From assembly GCF_000189755.2 (NCBI RefSeq), contig NZ_KI912183.1:1118257-1182256 (forward strand): DNA of 64,000 nucleotides, in the 5' to 3' direction. Source of the stretch: Desulfotomaculum nigrificans DSM 574. Lineage in GTDB: Bacteria; Bacillota; Desulfotomaculia; Desulfotomaculales; Desulfotomaculaceae. The notes beneath the pieces are model-generated. The model did not search any database. It was not told the DNA's origin and saw only the letters and a program-made list of their open reading frames with translations. Below, one piece after another: positions 5,182 through 14,559 of the stretch. Made by a program: the position numbers and the translations under genes. The stretch's first letter is position 1. Each line of letters starts with the position of its first letter.

Positions 5182-7725
5182 TTAGAAATTAGCCGCCCAG
5201 CTGGCCAGAGGTAGTTCAAACTTGGTGGCAAACTTGGGGTTGTTGGGTCGGATGCGCACAGTGAAACCACAAGTGCCCTGCTCCAGGGTAAAGCCCCCTT
5301 TATATCGGTAAACTCCTTCTTCACTTTGGCCTTCCACCGTCAAGGGGGATGTCTTAATCCCAACTAAAGTATGATCCCCCTCACAACCATGCACAACTTC
5401 TACCGCCACATCATGCGGTGGTATCGGTCCCAGATAAACAGTGGCGGTCAATTGCATGTCTTCCCCGGCTTTAAATTCCCGATCACTTTCCACCTCCACC
5501 GATTTGACAGTCACATGATGCCAGTTGTCTTTAATAAACCGTTTGTAATCCTGAACCTGGCTGGCTACCTGAAAATTGTTAGCGGTAAATTCCTCCCCCC
5601 GGCGGACGGCCTGACTGTAGAAACGATCCGTGTATTCCTTAACCATCCGCTCGGTACTAAACTGCGGGGTGATGGTTTTTATGGAATTTTTCATGCGGTC
5701 CACCCATTCCTTGGGATAACCATCGGTTTGGTTATAGTAAGCAGGTATAATTTGATCCTCTAATACGGAGTAAAGATGGAAGGCATCGTCTCTATCCTGA
5801 TCATCCTCGGTACGATAACCGGTTTCTCTACCCACGGCCCAGCCATTTTCTCCGTTGTAAGCTTCCGGCCACCATCCATCCAGCACACTGCAGTTAATTA
5901 CCCCGTTGACTGCTGCCTTCATCCCACTGGTGCCACTGGCTTCCATGGGCCAGCGGGGGGTATTGAGCCAAACATCAACTCCCTGTACCAAATGCCTGGC
6001 CACATTCATATCATAATTTTCAATGAAAATAATCTTACCCTTGAAGGGCTCTTCCTGAGATATATCATAAATATATTTGATTAATTCCTGGCCTGCCCGA
6101 TCGGCCGGGTGAGCTTTTCCGGCAAAAATTATTTGCACAGGTCGCTCCGGGTCACTGAAAATCCTGGCCAATCTCTCCTTATCTCTAAACAGTAAGGTGG
6201 CCCGCTTATAAGTGGCAAAGCGTCTGGCAAAACCAATGGTAAGGGCCTCGGGGTTAAGATACTCAGCAACCTCAGCAATATTTTCGGCTGCCTCCTGGTT
6301 GCGGGTTTTTTGTTTTTGCAATATACTTCGGACAAAATTGATAGTCTTTTTCTTTAGGGATTTATGTAAACCCCATAATTCCCGATCAGGAATATTACCT
6401 ATCGCGTGCCAGGGCTCCGGATTGCTAATGTTACCATGCCAGGCAGTACCCAGGTAAGAATTCAGTAATTCACGCAGTTCCCGGGACATCCAGGTCAGGG
6501 TATGAATACCATTGGTAACGGAGAAAACAGGCACCTCTTCCACCGGAATAGGATCAAACAGATAATGAAACATCTTACGGGTAACGTTTCCATGCAGTTG
6601 GCTCACACCATTACAATATGCCGACAAGTTCATGGCCAATATGGTCATGTTAAAACTATGACTTTTGGGATCCCAACCCAGGTTCATAAAGCTATCCCTG
6701 TCTACACCCAGCAGCCCATAGTAGTGGTTGAAATAGCGATGTACTCTGTCCGGGTCAAAAGTATCATGACCCGCCGGTACCGGTGTGTGAGTGGTAAAAA
6801 TAGTGCTGGCTCTCACTGCCTCCTTGGCTGTGGCCAGGGGAACACCGGCTTGCACCAGTTCTCGCAATCTTTCGATGCATAGGAACGCGGCATGGCCCTC
6901 GTTAATATGCCAGGCTGCCGGGTTGATCCCCATGTATCTTAAGGCCTTAACCCCGCCAATGCCCAACAGTATTTCTTGAGATATCCGAGTTTCCCGGTCA
7001 CCGCCGTAAAGCTGGGCGGTTAATCCTCTATCGTGGTCACTGTTTAAGGTTATATCAGCATCCAATAAATAGACTTTAATCCTGCCAATCTGCACTTGCC
7101 ATACTTTAAGATAGACCACCCTGCCCGGTAAATCCACCGGGATAATTACTTCCCGGCCATCCTCCGTAAGGGCAGGCCGCACCGGCATTTCATTATACTT
7201 TTGGAACGGGTAATGGGCCTCCTGCCAACCCTCTCGATTTATATACTGGGTAAAATAGCCTTGCTTATAAAGTATGCCTACCCCCACCAGGGGTAAGCCA
7301 ATGTCACTGGCGGCTTTACAATGGTCCCCGGCCAACACGCCCAAACCACCGGAATAAATAGGTAAGGATTCGTGCAGGCCAAACTCGGCAGAAAAGTAAG
7401 CAATGGTCTTGCCGGCCAAATCGGGATATTGTTCGGCAAACCAGGTCTGATTGTTCATATACTGATCCAGTTCAGCCATGACCTGATCGTATAAATTCAG
7501 ATATTCCTGATCCCCAGCCATCCGGGCCAAATCATCCGGGCTTACTTCCAGTAACAATTTTACCGGATTATGATTTAACTCCTGCCATTTATCGCGATTA
7601 ATTCTTTCAAATAGTTCCAGGGCTTTGGGCTGCCAGCTAAACCAAAAATTATAAGACAGTTCCTTTAATCTGCTAATCCTCTCCGGTAACTGCGGGCTAA
7701 CAGTAACCGTACGAAAGAAATACAT
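5182..7725 (-). CDS. glgP: Alpha-glucan phosphorylase
   Basis: Releases glucose 1-phosphate from glycogen or maltodextrin using pyridoxal phosphate. At about 847 residues it matches the bacterial/archaeal alpha-glucan phosphorylase type with an N-terminal DUF3417 region (FRTVTVSPQLPERISRLKEL...NFWFSW). GGLGVLAGDHCKAASD and NEGHAAF mark the N-terminal half; EASGTSGMKAAVNG contains the lysine expected to hold the cofactor. The longest frame begins at TTG 7740, but ATG 7725 follows GGGGGGTGAC and gives the family N-terminus. It stands alone here, without glgA or glgB, and is divergent from the next gene with a 211-bp gap. Confidence 0.93.
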   Translation of the reverse strand: MYFFRTVTVSPQLPERISRLKELSYNFWFSWQPKALELFERINRDKWQELNHNPVKLLLEVSPDDLARMAGDQEYLNLYDQVMAELDQYMNNQTWFAEQYPDLAGKTIAYFSAEFGLHESLPIYSGGLGVLAGDHCKAASDIGLPLVGVGILYKQGYFTQYINREGWQEAHYPFQKYNEMPVRPALTEDGREVIIPVDLPGRVVYLKVWQVQIGRIKVYLLDADITLNSDHDRGLTAQLYGGDRETRISQEILLGIGGVKALRYMGINPAAWHINEGHAAFLCIERLRELVQAGVPLATAKEAVRASTIFTTHTPVPAGHDTFDPDRVHRYFNHYYGLLGVDRDSFMNLGWDPKSHSFNMTILAMNLSAYCNGVSQLHGNVTRKMFHYLFDPIPVEEVPVFSVTNGIHTLTWMSRELRELLNSYLGTAWHGNISNPEPWHAIGNIPDRELWGLHKSLKKKTINFVRSILQKQKTRNQEAAENIAEVAEYLNPEALTIGFARRFATYKRATLLFRDKERLARIFSDPERPVQIIFAGKAHPADRAGQELIKYIYDISQEEPFKGKIIFIENYDMNVARHLVQGVDVWLNTPRWPMEASGTSGMKAAVNGVINCSVLDGWWPEAYNGENGWAVGRETGYRTEDDQDRDDAFHLYSVLEDQIIPAYYNQTDGYPKEWVDRMKNSIKTITPQFSTERMVKEYTDRFYSQAVRRGEEFTANNFQVASQVQDYKRFIKDNWHHVTVKSVEVESDREFKAGEDMQLTATVYLGPIPPHDVAVEVVHGCEGDHTLVGIKTSPLTVEGQSEEGVYRYKGGFTLEQGTCGFTVRIRPNNPKFATKFELPLASWAANF

Positions 7726-7936
7726 GGCGTCACCCCCCAATTGAAGTGGTCAAAAACATATATACCTATTTTGCCAATAAACCCGCTAAAGATATGCGCC
7801 TTTTATTCCTAATAGAGTTAAGATTAATTTTCTTAAAGTGAGGTTCCTGGCGCAGGATTTACGACATTAAATGACGTATTTTATTGCTTTGAAATAAGCA
7901 ATTTTATCATCATCTACTTTAGCACGGAGGACCTAA

Positions 7937-9079
7937 ATGTGGATTTACTGGGTTACCCTGGGATCGGTTTCAGCAATTCTTTACTTTCCGAATAAACGAT
8001 TATTTTCTAAGAAAATTGCTTTAACATCTTCTGTGGCTATCTTTGTTTTAGGTGCCCTCTACCCTTTGCTGCAGACAAAACTGTTTTTGTGGCAAGTGTT
8101 GTTAATTTTTGGCTGTATAATAACGGCATTGGCAGTTTATTTTGGGAACCTTCAACAACCGGATAACACATCACAAACAGCCGAGGATAAAACAGCTACC
8201 GTTAGTGGCAAACCTGAGAAATCTCCAGCACCCCTGGATGAACCGGAAATCGGTACCGAGGAACAGCCGGAGTTTCATCAATACATAGACAAAGCAGGGC
8301 TTCCAGATCTTGCTGTTAGCGACACCAACCCGGAATTGTTGACCTCCGGTACCACCAAGCCAGGAGAAGTAAATCCTAATGCAATAACGATGGAGCAATT
8401 AACTGTACCTGAGCCAGTGCAAATTGAAGAAGTTGCCGCCACAGCGGAAGTAATACCGGAACAAACACCTATTGAAGAGGAGTCGACTGAAGAAGAGTTA
8501 GTGAAAAAATTAGAAGAAGAGTTAGCTGAAGAAGCTCTATCGGAGGAAGTTCTAGCTGAAGCAGATTTAACCGATGACTTATTAATTCAGGCAAACTTAA
8601 CGGAAGAAGTTCCTCTCCATGCAGATGTCACCCAAGAGGTTGTTTCTGAAGAAGATTTACCAGAGGAGATACCGGTTGAAGGAGAGCTAACCCAGGAGGC
8701 TTTCGTTGAGCCTTCTCCCCAGGATCTATTGGCCGAAGGATTGCGGCAGGTCAGGCTTAAAAATTACCCGGAGGCAGTCCGGCATTTTAACCAGGTAGTT
8801 ACCTCCACAACCGAACCGGAGCTAATATATATGGCGGTTAGTGAATTAAGCTCGGTTTACCAACACCTTGGATTATATCCTTTAGCTGCTCAAATTATTA
8901 AAGCCTTTATGGAACAACCGGATTTAAAAAATCACCCAGGAATGAACCACCTGGAACAAAAAATGAGGTTTATTTATTGCCTGACGGAGCTGTTAGACAG
9001 CCACCGTTTGGGACATATTCCTTACGATCAAGTTCCTGAATCAGTACGTAGAGAGGCTTTTATCAACTCTCTTAAATAA
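7937..9079 (+). CDS. Membrane-anchored acidic repeat/TPR-like protein, unknown function
   Basis: I do not recognise a named family. Two or three hydrophobic segments in residues 5-70 suggest membrane anchoring. Residues 80-180 are Pro/Glu-rich and probably disordered. Residues 200-259 form six decapeptide repeats with consensus (D/N/E)L(T/S/P)(E/D/Q)(E/D)xxxxx. The C-terminal 120 residues are helical and TPR-like (LLAEGLRQVRLKNYPEAVRHFNQVV). The start ATG has GGAGG at 6 nt. It leads a cluster with PRC-barrel and VanW genes, 37 bp before the former, which points to an envelope role; that is inference. Confidence 0.75.
   Translation: MWIYWVTLGSVSAILYFPNKRLFSKKIALTSSVAIFVLGALYPLLQTKLFLWQVLLIFGCIITALAVYFGNLQQPDNTSQTAEDKTATVSGKPEKSPAPLDEPEIGTEEQPEFHQYIDKAGLPDLAVSDTNPELLTSGTTKPGEVNPNAITMEQLTVPEPVQIEEVAATAEVIPEQTPIEEESTEEELVKKLEEELAEEALSEEVLAEADLTDDLLIQANLTEEVPLHADVTQEVVSEEDLPEEIPVEGELTQEAFVEPSPQDLLAEGLRQVRLKNYPEAVRHFNQVVTSTTEPELIYMAVSELSSVYQHLGLYPLAAQIIKAFMEQPDLKNHPGMNHLEQKMRFIYCLTELLDSHRLGHIPYDQVPESVRREAFINSLK
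8534..8713 (+). repeat. Six 30-bp units encoding decapeptide repeats
   Basis: Units read LSEEVLAEA, DLTDDLLIQA, NLTEEVPLHA, DVTQEVVSEE, DLPEEIPVEG and ELTQEAFVEP. The protein period is exactly ten residues while the DNA has diverged. Confidence 0.75.
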
Positions 9080-9116
9080 ATAATGAGTAATTTCTTTAAA
9101 GGAAGGAGAAAATGTA

Positions 9117-9866
9117 GTGAAATTCAAAGATCAAATTGTAGGATTACCTGTTTTAAGTATTGCCGAAGTAGTTACTCTGGGAAAGGTTGAGGATGTGGTA
9201 ATTAACCCGGACAACGGAGTAGTAGAGTACTTAGTTGTGGAGCCCGAAGCATGGTATAAAGAACACCGATTGATTTCCTTTCGGGATGTAGCCGGTATCG
9301 GTGAAGATGCTGTAACCACTGAAATAAAGGCCAATGTGGTAGACATAACCTCCGTTCCCGCCGCTCTGGACCTACTCCAGAAGGATGTTCAGGTGGTAGG
9401 TTCCCGGGTCATGACCAGAAAAGGTAAGATCAACGGTTCCATTGATGAAATGGTGATTGATGAAGAAACAGGTAAAATTACCGCCTGCCGCTGGGTAGCG
9501 GGAGATCACCAAAAGACCGGCTTAATTCCTGCCAATATGGTGATTACCTTTGGTAAAGGTATGCTCGTGGTGGAAGATAATTTTGAGTCTGCCCTGGTGG
9601 ATGAGGCTTCTGAAATTAAGACCGATCTAATTAGCGACCCTGCTGTGGTAAAACATGAAACACCTACTGTAATTAATGAGGATCCGTTACAATTCTTTGA
9701 AGATCAACAAAAGCAATATTTAATTGGTCGTACCGTCACCACCGATATTCTCACCGATGATGGGGATATCATTGCTGCGAAGGGTGACAAAGTAACCCAG
9801 GAAATGGTGGACAAGGCTGTGGCAGCTGACAAATTCGTGGAGTTAACCCTGAATACCCGTGAATAA
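9117..9866 (+). CDS. PRC-barrel domain protein
   Basis: 249 residues with two PRC-barrel-like modules. The first is KDQIVGLPVLSIAEVVTLGKVEDVVINPDNGVVE-type and the second begins near residue 95 (DVQVVGSRVMTRKGKINGSIDEMVID). Such barrels occur in RimM, photosynthetic reaction centres and sporulation YlmC/YmxH proteins and mediate protein contacts. A C-terminal segment (GRTVTTDILTDDGDIIAAKGDKVTQEMVDKA) looks like a further small beta-rich domain. Start is GTG 9117 with AAGGAG at 8 nt; an ATG at 9112 is followed at once by a stop. Its 3' end overlaps the VanW gene by 8 bp, indicating translational coupling. Confidence 0.85.
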   Translation: MKFKDQIVGLPVLSIAEVVTLGKVEDVVINPDNGVVEYLVVEPEAWYKEHRLISFRDVAGIGEDAVTTEIKANVVDITSVPAALDLLQKDVQVVGSRVMTRKGKINGSIDEMVIDEETGKITACRWVAGDHQKTGLIPANMVITFGKGMLVVEDNFESALVDEASEIKTDLISDPAVVKHETPTVINEDPLQFFEDQQKQYLIGRTVTTDILTDDGDIIAAKGDKVTQEMVDKAVAADKFVELTLNTRE

Positions 9867-11226
9867 AATACGGCTAACCTCGTTGCTTACCCTAGCCCTG
9901 GGTATTCAATTATTGGTTAGTATCAGCCTGTCCAGCGCTGCATTGAAATTTTATTACCAGGGATCAGTTTTACCAGGTCTTACGGTGCAAGGCATTGATA
10001 TCGGGGGGCTCAAATATCATCAGGCGGTGGAAAAACTTAAACAAGAATTACCTTGGCCCAGCCCGGAAAGCCTGCTGGTATTAGTTGGTCCCCAGGGCCA
10101 GACCACCAATATCAGTTACGCCGATATTCAATATCGGCCTGATTACGAAACTACAGTTACGGAAGCATTAAAACAAAGCAGCAAGATTGCCGCCTGGACC
10201 AATTTAAATGGCTTGTTTAGGACCATTAACACCGGATATGAACAGCCCCTGAGAACTAAGTTTAATCAGGCAGCTTTTAACAGCATCCTAAATGACCTGG
10301 CAGTCAAATATAACCAACCGGCTCGGGATGCCCAGCTGGTTGTTAATGGCAATAATATTACTATATTTCAAGATATTAAGGGAATTCAGCTGGACAATCA
10401 AAGGACTATGCTTGAGTTGGCCAGATTACCACTAAACCGGCACCGACTGGAGCTGAAATTTAAAACTGTCGAACCTGCTGTCAAGGCAGAGGACTTCAAA
10501 GGAATTAACTCCCGGGTTGCTATCTTTGTGACCCAGTTTGATCCAACTAAAATTGATCGAACTTATAATATTAAGTTAGCCAGTAGATTAATTAATAACG
10601 TACTGGTTAAGCCCGGCCAAATCTTTTCCTTGGATAAGACCCTGGGACCGCGCAAACCAGAAAATGGTTACCGTCCGGCACCTGTTATCGTTAATAATAA
10701 ATTGGTCCCGGATTATGGTGGTGGGGTCTGCCAGGTTGCCACAACCCTGTATAACGCCGTATTATTAGCAGGTTTAACGGTGATTGAAAGAAGTCCCCAC
10801 TCCATGCCGGTACCCTATGCCCCGGTAGGTAAGGATGCTACCATCGCCGGAGACCTTATTGATTTTAAATTTTTAAACAGTACCCCTTACCCTATCCTCA
10901 TCACCAGCCAGGTACATCAGGGGAAACTTTTAGTCAGTATTTTCGGCCACCGGGAGGGGGCGGCGGCCAGATTAATTAAAATCGAAACGGAACGTGACAT
11001 CATCAAATCTGCCAGTAAATATGTGGAAGACACCACTTTAAGCCCGGGGCAGGTGGTGGTCCGCCAACCAGGACGAGACGGCTATACTCTAAAAACCTAC
11101 GAAGTTATATTAGAAAATGATAAAGAAATTTCCCGTCGGCTTATTTCGCAAAATTCTGTGCAGCCGGAACCGGAGGTAATCGCCGTAGGACCAAAAGTTC
11201 GCAACAAAGGGGCGGTTGCCAAGTAA
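9859..11226 (+). CDS. VanW family envelope protein
   Basis: 455 residues. An N-terminal signal/membrane segment precedes a peptidoglycan-binding-4-type region (VLPGLTVQGIDIGGLKYHQAVEKL). The VanW domain is marked by PGQIFSLDKTLGPRKPENGY and by DYGGGVCQVATTLYNAVLLAG. The C-terminal 70 residues look like a G5 domain (YVEDTTLSPGQVVVRQPGRDGY). VanW proteins are widespread in Firmicutes, are found in some vancomycin-resistance clusters, and have no established catalytic role. Start is GTG overlapping the previous stop. No vanA-type ligase is present, so this should not be taken as a resistance gene. Confidence 0.88.
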   Translation: MNKIRLTSLLTLALGIQLLVSISLSSAALKFYYQGSVLPGLTVQGIDIGGLKYHQAVEKLKQELPWPSPESLLVLVGPQGQTTNISYADIQYRPDYETTVTEALKQSSKIAAWTNLNGLFRTINTGYEQPLRTKFNQAAFNSILNDLAVKYNQPARDAQLVVNGNNITIFQDIKGIQLDNQRTMLELARLPLNRHRLELKFKTVEPAVKAEDFKGINSRVAIFVTQFDPTKIDRTYNIKLASRLINNVLVKPGQIFSLDKTLGPRKPENGYRPAPVIVNNKLVPDYGGGVCQVATTLYNAVLLAGLTVIERSPHSMPVPYAPVGKDATIAGDLIDFKFLNSTPYPILITSQVHQGKLLVSIFGHREGAAARLIKIETERDIIKSASKYVEDTTLSPGQVVVRQPGRDGYTLKTYEVILENDKEISRRLISQNSVQPEPEVIAVGPKVRNKGAVAK

Positions 11227-11228
11227 AA

Positions 11229-11260
11229 GGCACCACTGGTTTAAGTGGTGCCTCTCTGTT
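11229..11260 (+). terminator. Terminator after the VanW gene
   Basis: GGCACCAC and GTGGTGCC form an 8-bp stem followed by TCTCTGTT. The T tract is weak. It sits between convergent genes. Confidence 0.65.
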
Positions 11261-11267
11261 AAGTAAG

Positions 11268-11507
11268 TTAAATATTAATCTTGGACAAAATCTCATCATT
11301 CTCCGGGAAACGACCCTGCTCCTTTTTAGAGAAGATCAATTTCCCATTTACCTTCACTTCAAAAACACCGCCGCTGGAAGGTAGCAATTCCAAAGACGAA
11401 ACTTTATTCTTGTAGGCCCGCAGTAATGTTTCAGTCAGACCGACTGCTTTGGGTAAATAACCTCAGGCGGTGCAATACTCAATGGAAATTTTCATGTTTT
11501 CTGCCAT
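11268..11507 (-). CDS. SelW/Rdx-family selenoprotein (in-frame UGA = selenocysteine)
   Basis: 79 residues if TGA at 11463-11465 is read as selenocysteine (residue 15). The redox motif is Y-C-T-A-U-G-Y, matching the CxxU of SelW, and the frame continues with FEVKVNGKLIFSKK, the conserved GFFEV-x-V-x-GKLI-x-SKK block of the family. Conservation on both sides of the UGA argues against a pseudogene. A bSECIS-like hairpin follows the UGA at the expected distance. The start is ATG behind AGGAGG. The gene follows moaD of the AOR operon by 60 bp with no clear terminator between. Rdx proteins are thioredoxin-fold thiol redox proteins; the partner is unknown. Confidence 0.9.
11432..11446 (-). promoter_or_regulatory. 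bSECIS-like hairpin of the SelW-like gene
   Basis: On the minus strand CAGTC-GGTCT-GACTG begins 16 nt after the UGA. The loop starts with GG, as required in bacterial SECIS elements (a G within the first two loop bases). Confidence 0.75.
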
Positions 11508-11567
11508 TTCATTTCCTCCTTTATTGACCTTCTTATTTTGTCGCATTTTTTATCCACTAAACCGTGG

Positions 11568-11864
11568 TTAACCCCCGGTGACCGGGGTAACCACGGTTAA
11601 ACAATTACCATTATGCACCATTTTATCTTGATCATCCGGAATCCGCAAAGCCATGCCCGGCGCCCCTGGTTCAGGGGACAAAACTAAAGTTTGTCGGTCC
11701 ACTTCTTTAAAGACCGGGTCAGGTAGCAATTCCTCTAAATGCTGCAGCACCCTGGCCACTGTGACGGGTTGGGAAAATTCCAGTATATCCCCCCGCCGCC
11801 CGGACAGCAGGCGGACGACACCCAGGTAACGAATAAAAACCCTGATCCGGTCGGGTTTATCCAT
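11568..11864 (-). CDS. MoaD/ThiS-like sulfur carrier, AOR-associated
   Basis: 98 residues with a beta-grasp fold pattern (VFIRYLGVVRLLSGRRGDILEFSQ) and a C-terminal Gly-Gly after VTPVT, the feature used to carry thiocarboxylate. MoaD proteins donate sulfur to the dithiolene of molybdopterin. Its start overlaps the AOR stop by 8 bp, so it is probably a dedicated carrier for tungsto-pterin synthesis for this enzyme or an accessory subunit; similar small proteins accompany AOR genes elsewhere. Confidence 0.85.
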   Translation of the reverse strand: MDKPDRIRVFIRYLGVVRLLSGRRGDILEFSQPVTVARVLQHLEELLPDPVFKEVDRQTLVLSPEPGAPGMALRIPDDQDKMVHNGNCLTVVTPVTGG

Positions 11865-13761
11865 TAATTAACCCCCGCTCCTCCAATTCATCAGCTTCTT
11901 TGGTCAGGCCCAGTTGACGCAATTTGGTGCCGGTGGGCCGCCCGGTATTAATATCCCAACCCCTGGCCTGATAATATTCATCCAACATGGGTTCCAGTTC
12001 CACAACGCTACCGGCAGAGGGACCGGAGTCAGCAGGCAATGGCTCATGGGTAAATCGTTTGGGCAGGGTATCATCCTGTCTGGATAGACCTTCTCTCACG
12101 TTAAAGGCCCGTTCCAGGTTGACCACTCGTTCACAAATGGCCTGTACCTCATCGCCGTCAATATCCCAACCGGCCACTGCCCGCATCAACTGAGCTGCTA
12201 ACCGGAAATCTATGATTTCCATATTGACGATGGTATTTTTGCAGGCCTCCAGGCAGTCGGACAGGGCAGACCACTCTTCATAGTGCTTAACTACCCGCCC
12301 CTTGCCTTTATACTTCAAGCGGAAGGCGGCATCCGGGTGGCCGTACAACCTCTCACCCGCTGCCGCATCCTCACTGAATTCAAAGGAAGGCTCCGAACGC
12401 AGGTGATCGCCACCCCGGCTGGCCACCGCAAAGCCCAGGGCGTAGGCCTTTAAGCCTCTGGGGTCCGCCTGGAATAATTCCAGCCCCTTAACATGCAAAG
12501 CCAGTTCCTCAGAACCACGGCCAATCAAGCGGGCGGCCGCCCTGACCCCATCGGCTAGAATATTACCAAAGCCCTCCCGGGTATTGATTTTATTAATCAG
12601 GGTTAGCACGGTATCCACGTTACCCCAGGACAAATCCAGCCCGTCTGCTTCGGAACGAGAAATAATGCCCTTTTCATACAGCTCCATGGCAAAGGATATC
12701 ACTTCTGAGGTGGAAATAACATCCAGGCCGTAACGGTTGCATAAATCTACCGCTTTTAAGGCAGCAGCCAAATCCGTCACTCCCACCCGGGAGCTAAAGC
12801 CGGCCAATCCTTCAAATTCCGGCCCTTCGCTTTTTAGTCCGGCAAAGGGGCCATCAGTTACCGCAAAGAAACGGCTGCAGGGAATGGTGCAGGCAAAGCA
12901 GGATTTAGATTTTAACTTGTAGGTCTCAGCCAGGGCCTCACCGCTAACCTCTTCAGCTTTGTGAAAACGCCCGGTTTGGAAATGGCGGGTGGCCAAACAA
13001 CCGGCTTCGTTCAGGGCATGCACCAGTTTGGTGGTACCCATCAAGGCCCGGGCAGGATATTCCCGGTGCTCATAAATGGCCCGGTCAATATCCTTAAGCA
13101 ACCGGTCAAATTCATCCGGGTCTGCCACCTGCACCGGGTTGGTCCCCCTAACGGCAATGGCCTTAAGATTTTTGGCGCCCATCACCGTGCCCATACCGGT
13201 CCTGGCCGCCGCCCGAACCAAGTTGGTAAACACTCCGGCGAAGCGTACGCCGTTTTCGGCTGCCGTACCAATGGCGGCCACCTGCACCCTGGGGTCCCCC
13301 AGTTCATTGAGTATAGCTGCCTGGGTCTGCCATATATCTAACCCCCAGAGGTGCTCTGCCGGTTTTAAAGCCACAGTATCATTATGAATAAACAGGTACA
13401 CCGGTTTAGGGGCTTTACCTTCAATGATAATTTGATCGTAACCGGCAAACTTGATCTCCGGGGCAAAAAAACCGCCGGCGTTGGAGTCACCCAGGATACC
13501 GGTTTGCGGTGACTTGGCGCTAATATTAAATCTGGCCGCCCCCGGAAACATGGTTCCCACCAGCGGGCCGACACCAATAAACAATTTATTTTCCGGACTT
13601 AAACCGTCCAGTTGGGGCGAAATTTCATCATATAACCGGCGCATATTAAAACCCCGGCCACCTAAATAACCTCTCGCCAGATCCTGCTCCAGCGGTTCAA
13701 CGGTAAATTTGCCGGTGGTTAAGTTCACTCTTAATACTCTGCCGCCATATCCACAGGTCAT
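11857..13761 (-). CDS. aor: Tungsten-containing aldehyde:ferredoxin oxidoreductase
   Basis: 634 residues, full length for the AOR family. These enzymes oxidise aldehydes to acids with reduction of ferredoxin, using a tungsten bis-pterin and one [4Fe-4S] cluster. The N-terminal GGRGFNMRRL pterin signature is at residues 34-43. Cluster cysteines are C288, C291 and C295 in CFACTIPC, the same numbering as in the Pyrococcus enzyme, and a fourth lies in DCLEAC (C503 or C507). Start ATG at 13761 follows the ferredoxin gene by 15 bp. Tungsten rather than molybdenum is inferred from the family and from tupA in this window. Confidence 0.95.
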   Translation of the reverse strand: MTCGYGGRVLRVNLTTGKFTVEPLEQDLARGYLGGRGFNMRRLYDEISPQLDGLSPENKLFIGVGPLVGTMFPGAARFNISAKSPQTGILGDSNAGGFFAPEIKFAGYDQIIIEGKAPKPVYLFIHNDTVALKPAEHLWGLDIWQTQAAILNELGDPRVQVAAIGTAAENGVRFAGVFTNLVRAAARTGMGTVMGAKNLKAIAVRGTNPVQVADPDEFDRLLKDIDRAIYEHREYPARALMGTTKLVHALNEAGCLATRHFQTGRFHKAEEVSGEALAETYKLKSKSCFACTIPCSRFFAVTDGPFAGLKSEGPEFEGLAGFSSRVGVTDLAAALKAVDLCNRYGLDVISTSEVISFAMELYEKGIISRSEADGLDLSWGNVDTVLTLINKINTREGFGNILADGVRAAARLIGRGSEELALHVKGLELFQADPRGLKAYALGFAVASRGGDHLRSEPSFEFSEDAAAGERLYGHPDAAFRLKYKGKGRVVKHYEEWSALSDCLEACKNTIVNMEIIDFRLAAQLMRAVAGWDIDGDEVQAICERVVNLERAFNVREGLSRQDDTLPKRFTHEPLPADSGPSAGSVVELEPMLDEYYQARGWDINTGRPTGTKLRQLGLTKEADELEERGLING

Positions 13762-13776: not shown

Positions 13777-14559
13777 CTACTTCATAGCCGCCCTGGCGCC
13801 ACCCTTAAGGGGTGCCTCACCGGCCCGGCCAAAACGTAAAGCACCAGTCGCACAACGGTCCACACACTTGGGATCACCGCCGCATAAATCACAAATCAAA
13901 GGTTTGCCATCTTTAAAATGAATGGAGCCAAAGGGACAGGCCTCGGCGCAGGCTCCGCAGCCCTGGCAAATCTCAGGTTTAAGCTGCACCGCATGGGTCT
14001 CCGGATGGCGCTCCAGGGCACCAACGGGGCAAGCCTGCACACAGCGGGCGTTGCCGCACTGGCGGCACACCAGGGGACGATCCAGGCCGTTGGGTTCGTC
14101 TTTACTAACCCGAACCCGGGACTCTGTTTCGGAAAACATACCGGTTTTATGAAAACTACAAGCCAATTCACAGGAACGGCATCCTGAGCATACTTTTTCG
14201 TTAACTAGCATGCGAGGAAAAGGCTTGTCTTCCTTGGGATTAATTCCTTGATCGGCACAGGCAGGGGAAACGCTATCTCCCACAGGTATCCGTTCGATAC
14301 GGTAAATTACCATACCGTTAGGATCAGGGCAGCACATATGCTGCGTACTGGGTAGCCAGTCATTAGTCTCAGCTATCTTTCTCTGCTTGGCGGGAAACAT
14401 GGGCAGCATGGCTGCGAGGGCCCACATGCAAATGTGCTTACCATCGGGGATAATAATTCTCCCACCCTTAACCTCAAAATAATCTCCGGGCCGCATGGGT
14501 AAATCACAAAACCCACGGACCTCCTCAACTACAACACGTAAATCGTACACTCTGGCCAC
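13777..14559 (-). CDS. TIGR04076-domain / multi-[4Fe-4S] ferredoxin fusion, AOR electron partner
   Basis: 260 residues. Residues 1-95 match the TIGR04076 type (RPGDYFEVKGG, CMWALAAMLP, CPDPNGMVIYRI). From about residue 118 a four-cluster HycB/AOR-type iron-sulfur domain follows: CSGCRSCELAC, CRQCGNARCVQACP, CQGCGACAEACP and CDLCGGDPKCVDRC. It lies directly upstream of AOR and most likely takes or delivers its electrons. TIGR04076 proteins are usually small and free-standing, so the fusion is notable. The C-terminal tail is Ala/Gly/Lys-rich. Confidence 0.88.
   Translation of the reverse strand: MARVYDLRVVVEEVRGFCDLPMRPGDYFEVKGGRIIIPDGKHICMWALAAMLPMFPAKQRKIAETNDWLPSTQHMCCPDPNGMVIYRIERIPVGDSVSPACADQGINPKEDKPFPRMLVNEKVCSGCRSCELACSFHKTGMFSETESRVRVSKDEPNGLDRPLVCRQCGNARCVQACPVGALERHPETHAVQLKPEICQGCGACAEACPFGSIHFKDGKPLICDLCGGDPKCVDRCATGALRFGRAGEAPLKGGARAAMK

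Follow-up and report, generated by a model that had tools for sequence, protein, structure and literature searches.

Two questions arise at this locus: whether a UGA codon that interrupts a short reading frame is decoded as selenocysteine (Sec), and whether the protein made in this way is tied to the tungsten enzyme whose genes lie immediately upstream. The locus is part of the window, by which we mean the whole stretch of 64,000 nucleotides of Desulfotomaculum nigrificans DSM 574 that was analysed; the features discussed below are collected in Table 1.

A SelW-family protein across an in-frame UGA

Standard gene calling on selW would yield 14 residues only. Translation of the minus strand with TGA read as Sec gives the intact protein MAENMKISIEYCTAUGYLPKAVGLTETLLRAYKNKVSSLELLPSSGGVFEVKVNGKLIFSKKEQGRFPENDEILSKINI, followed by the stop codon, just as the original prediction had described it; its coordinates were exact and its strand, left unstated there, is minus, while a plus-strand reading of the same interval was ruled out by the absence of an open frame. 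The active-site motif is C12-T-A-U15 (CxxU), placed at the N-terminal strand-helix turn, and both the C12 and the U15 positions are invariant in the aligned set (A2). Assignment to the SelW/Rdx family follows from a match to PF10262 (Rdx) at 86 bits against a curated cut-off of 22.6 and to NCBIfam NF041051, the “SelT/SelW/SelH family (seleno)protein” model, at 100.4 bits against a cut-off of 88; the best NCBIfam model overall is the Campylobacter-type one.

The fold predicted by AlphaFold2, from an input of 16 relatives and with Cys substituted for Sec, is the thioredoxin-like fold of SelW (pLDDT 83.5). Comparison of this model with crystal structures of bacterial SelW-family proteins gave 2fa8 as the best match (TM 0.90, rmsd 0.9, E 4.5e-09), and a profile search with the protein recovered the same bacterial SelW-family proteins together with mouse SelW.

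Table 1. Positions of selW, its signals and its upstream neighbours in the window.
Feature	Position	Strand	Basis or remark
selW (SelW/Rdx selenoprotein, 79 residues, Sec at residue 15)	11268..11507	-	stop TAA 11270-11268
In-frame UGA as selenocysteine, CTAU motif	11463..11465	-	TGA invariant in 18 aligned relatives
Shine-Dalgarno-like AAAGGAGG before ATG of selW	11516..11523	-	direct sequence reading
bSECIS hairpin, 5-bp stem CAGUC/GACUG, loop GGUCU	11432..11446	-	covariation, alignment, single-sequence folds
Intrinsic-terminator-like hairpin after selW, then TTTTACTT	11225..11256	-	fold -23.8 kcal/mol including flanks
Terminator-type hairpin, stable, over moaD stop codon	11562..11596	-	folding; tail here TTTAGTGG
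MoaD/ThiS-like protein, ends GG	11568..11864	-	ThiS 21.8 bits, just below 22.5 cut-off; neighbour outside SelW unit
Aldehyde ferredoxin oxidoreductase (AOR)	11857..13761	-	AFOR_C 438 bits, AFOR_N 262 bits; neighbour
Ferredoxin-like protein, TIGR04076 domain and 4Fe-4S clusters	13777..14559	-	domain matches; neighbour

Decoding of the UGA codon

Four independent lines agree on recoding: the selenocysteine machinery, conservation of the codon, protein-like evolution beyond it and the downstream hairpin. The machinery is complete in the genome, where all four of the genes that had been proposed as a check were found, namely selA (624 bits, cut-off 268) just upstream of selB (399.9 bits, cut-off 242), selD (407.7 bits) and selC, a tRNA-Sec with anticodon UCA. 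An in-frame TGA also lies close to the start of this genome’s selD (L017 1501-2424), and SelD is therefore probably a selenoprotein here as well.

The codon is kept across large distances: TGA occupies the Sec position in 9/9 genus genomes and in 79 of the 80 relatives sampled from Firmicutes, Chloroflexi, Neomarinimicrobiota, Actinomycetota and other groups; a search for selW in 120 genomes gave matches in 22, each with an internal TGA. Among nine orthologues, differences per codon 3′ of the UGA amount to 0.19, 0.16 and 0.51 at codon positions 1, 2 and 3, a pattern by which the codons past the UGA are judged to evolve as protein. Truncation of the homologues at this codon, named beforehand as fatal to a selenoprotein, is thus not seen.

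The hairpin begins exactly 16 nt after the UGA, at the spacing originally proposed, and covaries beyond what shuffling produces. Across 18 sequences, 98.9% of the cells in the stem hold standard pairs, with pair 24-36 occurring as G-C, A-U, U-A or C-G and pair 26-34 as C-G, U-A or U-G. The covariation score of 0.439 compares with a mean of 0.161 for shuffled alignments and is reached by 0/500 shuffles, a control that ignores relatedness; when the 3′ side is slid by 1–3 columns, a control that retains relatedness, pairing falls to 6–41%. In the apical loop, the second base is an invariant G and the first is G in the window and A in some relatives. Since the stem lies within coding sequence, constraint on the protein could explain part of its conservation, yet an RNA structure is favoured because the pair changes are two-sided and compensatory.

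That the UGA is instead a true stop and the frame behind it a decaying pseudogene is scarcely credible: the 14-residue gene call would suit such a reading, but the UGA is invariant across the genus, the sequence after it evolves as protein, the SECIS covaries and the machinery is complete. The in-frame UGA of selW almost certainly encodes selenocysteine, as in its relatives, and the prediction of a SelW selenoprotein masked by this codon holds up in the agreement of machinery, codon conservation and SECIS. SelB together with the selenocysteyl-tRNA would bind the bSECIS just downstream of the UGA and insert selenocysteine, and the small product, of thioredoxin fold and with CxxU as its active site, would act as a thiol/selenol oxidoreductase.

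Gene order around selW

Upstream of selW and on the same strand lies a cluster for a ferredoxin (Fd), AOR and a MoaD-like protein, with the selW start about 60 nt beyond the moaD stop. The original prediction had made selW the last member of a tungsten-enzyme operon, cast SelW as a redox helper of that enzyme and proposed conservation of the AOR-SelW order as a check. We compared the selW locus with those of eight congeners and of relatives outside the genus, using flanks of up to 8 kb. The cluster stands near selW in only 2/9 genomes of the genus, the window’s own and G001 (Desulforamulus putei), and D. putei is the sole carrier of AOR in the fetched flanks among 80 named relatives, with none outside the genus.

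The usual genus neighbour is a cysteine-synthase-like (CysK-like) gene, which lies directly upstream of selW, on the same strand and at a gap of 50–150 nt, in G001, G004, G006, G007 and G008. In G003, a transposon separates the two; by eye, this insertion (L046 8507-10845) is of IS607 type, with genes for a MerR-like serine recombinase and a TnpB-like protein. In D. putei, the order is Fd-AOR-MoaD-CysK-like-SelW. Five of the nine genomes (G003, G004, G006, G007 and G008) have the CysK-like gene by selW and no AOR cluster at the locus; an orthologue of the window’s AOR was found in none of G003, G004, G006 and G008, which hold distant paralogues only, and for G007 this search covered a genome that is 72% complete. 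G002 and G005 carry an orthologous AOR cluster (84% identical) followed by CysK, with selW elsewhere, beside NADH dehydrogenase genes; in G005 a VanW-domain gene comes immediately after CysK, and no remnant of selW was found between the two. The window’s genome lacks an orthologous CysK, its best match being a 45% paralogue elsewhere. The combinations seen are thus CysK-SelW without AOR, AOR-CysK without SelW, all three together and AOR-SelW without CysK.

A strong stem-loop of terminator type over the moaD stop codon is found in four genomes (11562-11596 in the window, L043 9880-10080, L063 5060-5240 and L064 5100-5285) and is followed by a U tract in G001, G002 and G005; in the window the stem is kept and the U tract, within the tail TTTAGTGG, is poor, so that transcription of moaD might in part run on into selW. 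The hairpin after selW sits between selW and a convergent VanW-domain gene. A scan of positions 11150-11950 for promoter and terminator consensus sequences gave zero matches, and thus no sigma-70-type promoter for selW, although folding gives two hairpins in that interval. The sole Rfam match in the window is a Mo/W cofactor riboswitch (RF01055, 74.9 bits) at 2522-2644 on the minus strand, upstream of a co-oriented lipoprotein-like gene (1510-2394) whose product is possibly substrate-binding.

No stable partner gene of selW was found across phyla. A GlgP gene lies near selW both within the genus and among family-f3 genomes, and it was rejected as a functional partner and classed as synteny because it is about 190–1300 nt away, often with opposite-strand genes in between. 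UGA-containing selW genes stand beside or between selD and selA in loci of Fictibacillus, Bacillus and Peribacillus, and beside these genes in one Verrucomicrobiales MAG (L100 at 6850-9680, L094, L111, L118, L119, L123, L132-L137 and L145); in ten loci of this set, selA is directly downstream of selW, on the same strand and within 250 nt.

Candidate functional partners of SelW

These arrangements bear on which protein, if any, SelW serves. A partnership with the CysK-like protein in sulfur or cysteine metabolism is unlikely: the same-strand adjacency in five genomes speaks for it, but the pairing was seen in the genus only, with no CysK found near SelW outside it, three genomes of family f3 have selW near GlgP without CysK, and the two genes are apart in G002 and G005, with CysK missing from the window’s genome (G000).

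That SelW assists AOR as a redox helper, with selW co-transcribed as the final member of an Fd-AOR-MoaD operon, is in our view very improbable. The shared strand and short gap, the AOR cluster near selW in D. putei and the poor U tract in the window could be cited for this reading; it is opposed by the five genomes with selW at the locus without the cluster and the two with the cluster and selW elsewhere, by the confinement of the arrangement to D. putei among the named relatives, by the CysK-like gene that intervenes there and by the terminator with its U tract at the end of moaD in relatives. Joint inheritance of an AOR-SelW unit in a single clade of AOR-bearing genomes was rejected as well, since the GlgP gene tree does not unite these genomes. 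A narrower form, in which the missing CysK-like gene and the weakened moaD terminator would have brought selW under the control of the AOR promoter in this species only, with SelW made with and serving AOR, strikes us as equally improbable. Our literature search found no work joining SelW to AOR, and the portions of text available to us on SelW and on tungsten do not link the two. Neither the operon nor the helper role of the original prediction is supported by this comparison.

The best explanation, and one we hold to be very probable, is that selW is the Desulforamulus orthologue of a known bacterial SelW-like selenoprotein, with Sec inserted via the bSECIS and with the adjacency to AOR stemming from rearrangement. 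In some species, the AOR cluster would occupy the site upstream of the CysK-like gene that normally precedes selW, and moaD and selW adjoin in the window because this species lacks that gene; this direct contact is most readily explained as an incidental outcome of rearrangement. Judging from gene order, AOR is a neighbour of SelW by such rearrangement and not its conserved partner. The scattered distribution of the genes is the basis for the proposed sequence of events, with cysK lost here and AOR gained or lost. The most likely role of SelW, to go by its family, is general thiol-disulfide or peroxide-related redox chemistry; a recent review states that SelW clusters with peroxiredoxins in metagenomes and suggests shared redox processes (PMC13188914).

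The locus offers a clean example of how standard gene calling would cut a selenoprotein short, and of an attractive AOR-selW adjacency that dissolves on comparison with eight congeners. It does not support any novel function for SelW in the enzymology of tungsten.

Relation to known selenoproteins

A 2006 survey of bacterial selenoproteomes already listed SelW-like proteins as a selenoprotein family and named one in Desulfotomaculum reducens, and it described Cys forms of SelW-like proteins as rare in organisms that use Sec (PMC1794560). With the bacterial SelW-like selenoproteins (PF10262; NF041051, TIGR02174), the protein in the window shares the domain, the CxxU motif, the length, the fold and the UGA with a downstream bSECIS. 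Campylobacter jejuni SelW (CJnc60) is likewise about 80 residues long with a UGA decoded by tRNA-Sec, and the difference lies in the evidence, as full-length translation beyond the UGA was established there experimentally by Ribo-seq and proteomics (PMC11955535) and is inferred here. Mammalian selenoprotein W (2npb) belongs to the same superfamily by sequence and fold but is more distant from the protein in the window (TM 0.64). The eukaryotic SECIS element lies in the 3′ UTR. Compared with the bacterial SelW-like selenoproteins, nothing of substance is different, and selW in the window extends the orthologues of a long-known selenoprotein to one more species of the group.
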